IMG/VR virus record: IMGVR_UViG_3300043449_001293
Location: 1 to 28,757 of that record
Length of the DNA stretch: 28,757 nt
Reading direction: 5' to 3' (one strand)
Source: a virus
The position numbers were made by a program, and so were the translations under genes. The stretch's first letter is position 1; each line of letters opens with the position of its first letter. Below the pieces are notes generated by a model that saw only the letters and a list, made by a program, of their open reading frames with translations, was not told the origin of the DNA and did not search any database. Below, piece by piece: positions 11,485 to 12,281 of the stretch.

Positions 11485-12281
11485 GCCCTTCCCCCAACGA
11501 CCTTGTAGCCAGCCGTGTGATCCTTCTGCTGCATAGCGACTGGAGCCGTAATTGCATCCTTCCAGTCCCATACAGCACGGAATCCCTGCCAATTGCGCTC
11601 GATAGAAATTCTGATTGCTTCGGAAATATCTATCCCGGCCTTACCCGCCTCCCGTTGAAAGCCCTCAAGGCACGTTTGGGTAATCGGTGCTGCCTTTCCA
11701 TCCTTGCCGCAGTGCTTGCGGTGCTGGATAAAATCTTTTGCTAGTTGCCCATCGATGCCGAAGGTTGATAGTAAATTCTCGATGTCCGATTTTCTTGCAT
11801 TGCGTGTTTGCGATTTTTCGCTAATAAACACGTTAGTGTTTATATCTTTATCTTTATCTTTATCTTTATCTGTCGTGACATTTCGTGACGGTGCGTGACA
11901 TTCTTTTTCAAGAAATTCCTTTTCGCGCTCTCTTTGCGCTCTTTTCCGCTCTGATGCTGACTTTGCGCCAGTTTCTGAGCCACAATCTTCGCGTTTTGGC
12001 TGGCGTTTTTCCCATCCAGTTAAACGGAATCCATCCAGAACTCGCCCCTGCATTGCCTCAAAAACAACCGATATTTCTTCCTCTGTCACGTCTAGTTGTG
12101 ACGCAATATCTTCTAGCGTGACATCAGCGTGACCGCGCGTGACATTTCGTGACGATGCACAAAGAAGCGTGACATAAACCGAAATAACCAAAGAAATAGG
12201 TTGCTTTGATATGCGCGCAATCGTCCTCCATTTTGGATCAGTTGGCATGTCATGCCACAGTCGAAGCCATTGGTTTGACAT
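11481..12281 (-). CDS. Lambda-O-like replication initiator
   Basis: A 266-residue protein that starts SNQWLRLWHDMPTDPKWRTI, a typical N-terminal winged-helix opening of phage replication proteins; the TLEDIASQLDVTEEEISVVF segment is the recognition helix-turn-helix region. A charged linker (SERKRAQREREKE) and a DKDKDKDKD run follow, then a C-terminal helical domain (LAKDFIQHRKHCGKDGKAAP). Directly followed by dnaB, it is expected to bind iterons within its own gene and load helicase, as lambda O does. The start at 12281 is preceded by AAAGGA. The gene carries the candidate origin described separately. Confidence 0.82.
   Translation of the reverse strand: MSNQWLRLWHDMPTDPKWRTIARISKQPISLVISVYVTLLCASSRNVTRGHADVTLEDIASQLDVTEEEISVVFEAMQGRVLDGFRLTGWEKRQPKREDCGSETGAKSASERKRAQREREKEFLEKECHAPSRNVTTDKDKDKDKDINTNVFISEKSQTRNARKSDIENLLSTFGIDGQLAKDFIQHRKHCGKDGKAAPITQTCLEGFQREAGKAGIDISEAIRISIERNWQGFRAVWDWKDAITAPVAMQQKDHTAGYKVVGGRA
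11821..12173. other. Candidate replication origin inside the initiator gene
   Basis: Eight direct CGTGAC hexamers start at 11874, 11884, 11894, 12117, 12128, 12138, 12148 and 12168. Within clusters they are 10 or 11 bp apart, one helical turn; 12148 to 12168 is two turns. A TGTGAC at 12097 and an inverted copy at 12085-12090 add to the right cluster. Because 10 is not a multiple of 3, the protein sequence does not explain the spacing. Next to the left cluster lies an AT-rich stretch with more than four TTTATC hexamers (11843-11870) and a TAAACAC-gtta-GTGTTTA inverted repeat (11825-11842). Iterons plus an AT-rich tract inside an O-like gene is the layout of the lambda origin. Confidence 0.65.

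Follow-up and report, generated by a model that had tools for sequence, protein, structure and literature searches.

A probable phage replication origin of short, helically spaced words inside the gene for its presumed initiator

A stretch of the 28,757-nt virus record IMGVR_UViG_3300043449_001293 (the whole of which is called the window here) is, with good confidence on the basis of sequence comparison, a phage replication origin within a gene whose product would act as its initiator. Selection acts on the short words that form the array, on their helical spacing and on the tract beside them at the level of the DNA, not of the protein. Moreover, words and tract travel with the N-terminal domain of the protein where its C-terminal part and the helicase partner have been exchanged, and the words are absent from two relatives that harbour an unrelated C-terminal part (L019 and L035). 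The features are as follows.

12281-11481, minus strand: initiator gene, 266 aa (open reading frame with ATG start at 12281; PHROG matches)
12173-12168, minus strand: extra GTCACG, private to the window phage among those compared
12153-12117, minus strand: cluster A, four GTCACG at steps of 10, 10 and 11 bp (sequence; positions in relatives; third bases)
12102-12097, minus strand: GTCACA near-copy, present in only a few relatives (L012, L139, L087 and L164)
12085-12090, plus strand: inverted copy, 33 bp (three helical turns) past the last cluster-A word, conserved in relatives
11899-11874, minus strand: cluster B, three GTCACG spaced by 10 bp within a poorly conserved linker (sequence; relatives)
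11873-11838, minus strand: GATAAA tract phased at 6 nt, encoding DKDKDKD and presumed to be a DNA-unwinding element (composition, periodicity, codon choice)
11485-10213, minus strand: DnaB-type replicative helicase (PF03796, E 4.2e-72)

The stop codon of the initiator gene overlaps the ATG of the helicase gene in ATGA, as read from the sequence, and the phage also encodes an integrase. The initiator consists of an N-terminal putative DNA-binding domain (approximately residues 1-105; so designated from its conservation and the PHROG naming), a linker and a C-terminal domain. Its residues 1-149 match PHROG 3729 ('replication initiation protein', E 1.3e-57), an N-terminal profile match found in all 52 aligned members, and residues 103-242 match phrog_678 ('replication initiation O-like', E 1.9e-22). 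No Pfam domain was found in the window initiator, and no solved structure matched it credibly.

As the gene lies on the minus strand, CGTGAC reads GTCACG on the coding strand. Eight copies of CGTGAC (11874, 11884, 11894, 12117, 12128, 12138, 12148 and 12168) were reported in the initial annotation, along with one TGTGAC (12097), an inverted copy (12085-12090) and a tract of TTTATC repeats, and all of them were located at those places. The AT-rich tract does abut the cluster that had been called the left one; given the strand of the gene, this cluster (B) is the downstream one. Cluster A is positioned inside the coding part of the N-terminal putative DNA-binding domain and its words are read in three frames (SR, VT, GH and VT), as are those of cluster B (CH..SR..VT), with approximately 220 bp between the two clusters in the window.

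Chance and coding content were assessed with 20,000 synonymous-codon shuffles in which protein and codon usage were held fixed. GTCACG is found eight times in the gene (null mean 1.75; maximum 7) and pairs of words at 10 or 11 bp five times (null mean 0.13; maximum 3), and none of the 20,000 shuffles reached either number, which upholds the earlier proposal that the 10-bp period does not stem from codon repeats. Counted over the whole window on both strands, as had been suggested for a test of enrichment, CGTGAC occurs 22 times versus 14.1 expected; 13 of these copies are outside the initiator gene, which is at background (approximately 14 expected for the window), thus the excess is local to the initiator gene, and genome-wide abundance of the word was ruled out. 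No similar array was found in ten other genes of the window.

Relatives were collected by protein similarity from viral contigs, one bacterial genome and phage records, and include Aeromonas phage pAEv1818, Pseudomonas phage phi1 and Escherichia phage Evi; the protein-based scan of bacterial genome contigs yielded one Sphingobium relative. A helical-turn array was significant (p <= 0.01) in 47 of 52 genes, the window included, with word spacings peaking at 10-11, 20-21 and 30-31 bp. In the GTCAC clade, cluster-A words are at gene nt 125, 135, 145 and 156 and the inverted copy is at 189. In a six-word subgroup (125 to 177), where cluster A is longer by 21 bp, the inverted copy is shifted to 210, again 33 bp past the last word. 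The inverted copy is present in 25 of 26 diverged representatives, and L002 and L062 retain it in a different reading frame, where it encodes DCDE rather than DVTE. At conserved codons of 26 representatives (<88% identical), 97% of third bases agree inside words versus 53% elsewhere (p 5e-7). Cluster A within the conserved N-terminal domain and cluster B within the linker are both fixed across relatives, although cluster B varies from two to nine copies. The hexamers are kept in aligned relatives, and cluster-A positions and spacing are held; conservation of position in most relatives applies to seven direct copies plus the inverted copy, yet not to the TGTGAC at 12097 or the copy at 12168 (position 105 of the gene), the latter being found in no other relative compared.

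The layout was also recovered without any protein information, by searching the DNA of 2.9 million viral contigs for four GTCAC at 10, 10 and 11 bp. At least 120 contigs were found; among the matches listed, 112 contigs have the pattern inside a homologous initiator open reading frame, 187 of 195 matches fall within the initiator gene family, and eight contigs have the pattern outside the initiator gene. For example, L066 (2003-2038) and L117 (minus strand) harbour an identical four-word GTCAC array that is not within an initiator gene, and the stretches fetched from both contain no relative of the initiator gene; the array might serve as a decoy or as a second origin, or be what is left of a satellite. 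A further locus outside the initiator family, L154 6833-7093, has GTCAC five times at 10-11-bp intervals and, after these words, tandem repeats of approximately 20 bp (CATTTGACCACTCAAGTAGA). Among complete E. coli genomes, 2055 of 5426 carry the Evi-type initiator region (query L054:2998-3500), which is plasmid-borne in six places; among the matches listed, the copies are mostly annotated 'hypothetical protein' and also 'phage replisome organizer'.

In relatives the tract is always 3′ of cluster B and is rich in A+T and in purines. In 83 of 83 distinct relatives, the A+T content of the 50 nt that follow cluster B exceeds the gene average (63% versus 45%), and identity at a lag of 6 nt is 0.62 versus 0.28, with units that are mainly GATAAA, GATACA or GAGACA. 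The encoded peptide varies among relatives (DK, DT, ET or DS). Within the tract, D is encoded by GAT in 98% of cases (55% elsewhere) and T by ACA in 96% (20% elsewhere), whereas no codon bias is seen for E; this biased choice of D and T codons indicates that the tract is partly under DNA-level constraint. Just past the GATAAA tract of the window, a small inverted repeat (TAAACAC-TAAC-GTGTTTA) is located at 11828-11845.

Words other than GTCACG are also in use. Over 139 distinct genes, GTCACG is used by 91, GAACGC by 37 and GTAACGC by 7, with an AACG/CACG core in common; users of GAACGC and GTAACGC are more distant relatives that have kept the two-cluster layout. On the tree of N-terminal domains, in which many forks are weak, 10 word changes are required versus 31.9 with shuffled labels, thus the words cluster strongly by descent. 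The gene after the initiator varies, encoding DnaB, a DnaC/IstB-like loader, a lambda-P-like loader (L139) or a primase-helicase, and seven relatives have a DnaT C-terminal domain, yet the N-terminal domain, both clusters and the tract remain together across relatives. Modular logic of this sort is known for lambdoid O proteins. A natural negative control for the words is provided by L019 (2001-3089) and L035 (1998-3086), which are positioned inside the GTCAC clade and have the N-terminal domain and no words. In L019 this domain is fused to a T5orf172/MUG113 (GIY-YIG-type) domain that replaces the usual C-terminal part; L035 has no Pfam match and looks like L019 by eye. The L019 protein is probably not an initiator, and its fusion suggests a sequence-targeted nuclease or regulator.

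Other readings of the words were weighed against the origin. They might be operator sites through which the initiator or another regulator controls the replication operon, with replication starting elsewhere, which we regard as improbable. Iteron-binding initiators commonly autoregulate by repressing their own operon, hence such sites could be mainly regulatory, and in the window none lies beyond nt 410 of the gene. However, most of them lie a long way downstream from any promoter, the array disappears where the C-terminal part of the initiator was replaced, and the combination of 7-15 sites in coding sequence with a 6-nt-phased A+T-rich tract in all 83 relatives is the anatomy of an origin. 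Considerably less probable still is a partition site (centromere) like parC, with 10-11-bp direct repeats bound by ParR. The repeat period would be equal, as ParR binds 10-bp repeats (PMC5016525), the repeats of plasmid R1 are in two sets around a promoter, and a ParB-HTH protein adjoins in L014. Yet no ParM/ParR pair adjoins the array in the window, where the neighbours are the helicase and small phage genes; the usual neighbours in relatives are helicases, loaders or primases, the window phage has its integrase, and neither an A+T-rich tract nor an initiator gene has a place in a centromere.

That the words are a by-product of protein repeats or of low-complexity coding sequence is barely credible, even though SRNVT is found repeatedly and DKDKDK makes a simple linker. 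The same hexamer is found in three frames at conserved places, and the tract keeps a strongly biased codon choice while its peptide changes; a protein-repeat origin of the words was ruled out by third-base conservation, by this codon bias and by the codon shuffles.

The favoured reading, an origin within the initiator gene, had been put forward in the initial annotation as lambda-like. Strong support for an iteron origin inside the initiator gene comes from the DNA-level constraint, the conservation, the adjacent tract and the helicase gene that comes next. The lambda part holds as a working analogy only, as the window initiator is not a member of the lambda O family: Phage_rep_O (PF04492), found in lambda O, is absent from the window protein and the other 51 aligned relatives, and no similarity to lambda O was detectable in the N-terminal part (hhalign probability 0.2%). 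Window initiator and lambda O match different parts of phrog_678 (the C-terminal and the N-terminal part of the profile, respectively), so their shared name reflects domain exchange. In layout, the lambda ori in O likewise has its iterons in mid-gene, between the DNA-binding and partner-binding parts, with a similar A+T-rich purine-strand tract directly 3′ of them, on the same side as in the window, and with a loader or helicase gene next. However, lambda has four to six iterons of 18 bp at 20-24-bp steps in one cluster, whereas the window has 6-bp words at 10-11-bp steps in two clusters, one of them inside the domain-coding part and with an inverted copy at three turns; no 10-11-bp array was found in the lambda O gene. 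The lambda partner is a P-type helicase loader and that of the window a DnaB helicase, although a lambda P follows in the relative L139. Lambda-type origins of Stx phages have six iterons, and the extra ones lengthen the O protein (PMC7466680), a likeness to the extra words that lengthen the initiator here.

Replisome organizers of the TP901-1 type are of similar length and combine an N-terminal DNA-binding with a C-terminal loader-type domain, yet they carry HTH_36 and DnaB_2 domains, show no profile similarity to the window initiator and have no 10-11-bp array; homology of the N-terminus to either lambda O or TP901-1 Rep was ruled out by negative profile comparisons. Iteron plasmids (RK2 TrfA, F RepE) resemble the window in having direct repeats and a DNA-unwinding element (DUE) with short repeats of its own, while their iterons are longer, approximately 20 bp apart and outside the gene, and their Rep proteins are unrelated to the window initiator. 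Both TrfA and RepE bind to a single strand of the DUE (PMC4081077). Two sets of iterons are the hallmark of PICI origins and were described as unique to PICI (PMC6092414). PICI/SaPI origins, like the window, combine an A+T-rich region with short iterons in two sets, but their sets flank that region and are located 3′ of rep, whereas in the window both sets lie within the gene and to the same side of the region.

In the mechanism that we propose, the N-terminal domain would bind the 5-6 bp GTCAC(G) words, one for each helical turn, with monomers aligned head to tail along one face of the DNA. Cluster B, adjoining the GATAAA tract, would nucleate melting of the tract, while cluster A and the inverted copy may add molecules or let the complex fold back. 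The C-terminal domain would then deliver the helicase, which in the window phage is the DnaB that it encodes in the adjoining gene, to the melted strand. With the sites lying within the coding sequence of the domain itself, initiator and origin would be kept matched when phages recombine. The distance between clusters A and B varies between relatives, and their helical phase is not significantly conserved (over 17 distinct distances the resultant is 0.41); a looped complex joining the two clusters, as initially suggested, is therefore only a possibility.

A comparable pattern was seen in unrelated phage genes of the DUF6291 family (PF19808), in which 6-bp words at 10-bp steps are followed by an A-rich, often 6-nt-phased tract (L179, L182, L184, L186, L192, L194, L199, L224 and L254). 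These genes were picked by the pattern itself, which biases their shuffle p-values, and the comparison with Pfam covered five of the proteins. Judged from this layout, DUF6291 is probably another initiator family with the origin inside the gene; no mention of DUF6291 was found in the open-access literature searched. More tentatively, helical-turn-spaced short-word origins in initiator genes might form a broad undescribed class of phage origin that was reached independently by unrelated initiators (the PHROG 3729-type family and DUF6291), with monomers tiling one DNA face and then continuing onto the 6-nt-phased single strand of the unwinding tract.

An origin inside an initiator gene is already known in kind; the two-cluster short-word layout is, in our judgement, widespread and was not found described. 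In particular, no description of a GTCACG-type in-gene origin was found in the open-access literature searched, which misses most subscription papers. The family shows a binding site written through three reading frames of its presumed binding protein, and the natural changes of word (GTCACG, GTAACGC and GAACGC) would allow the specificity of initiators to be studied. If the origin reading is true, a simple DNA signature would be available for locating origins in phage genomes, and the initiator family would have a ready-made, testable origin across phages and prophages of many bacteria. The layout itself recurs in phages of many bacteria, among them prophages of more than one third of the complete E. 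coli genomes.
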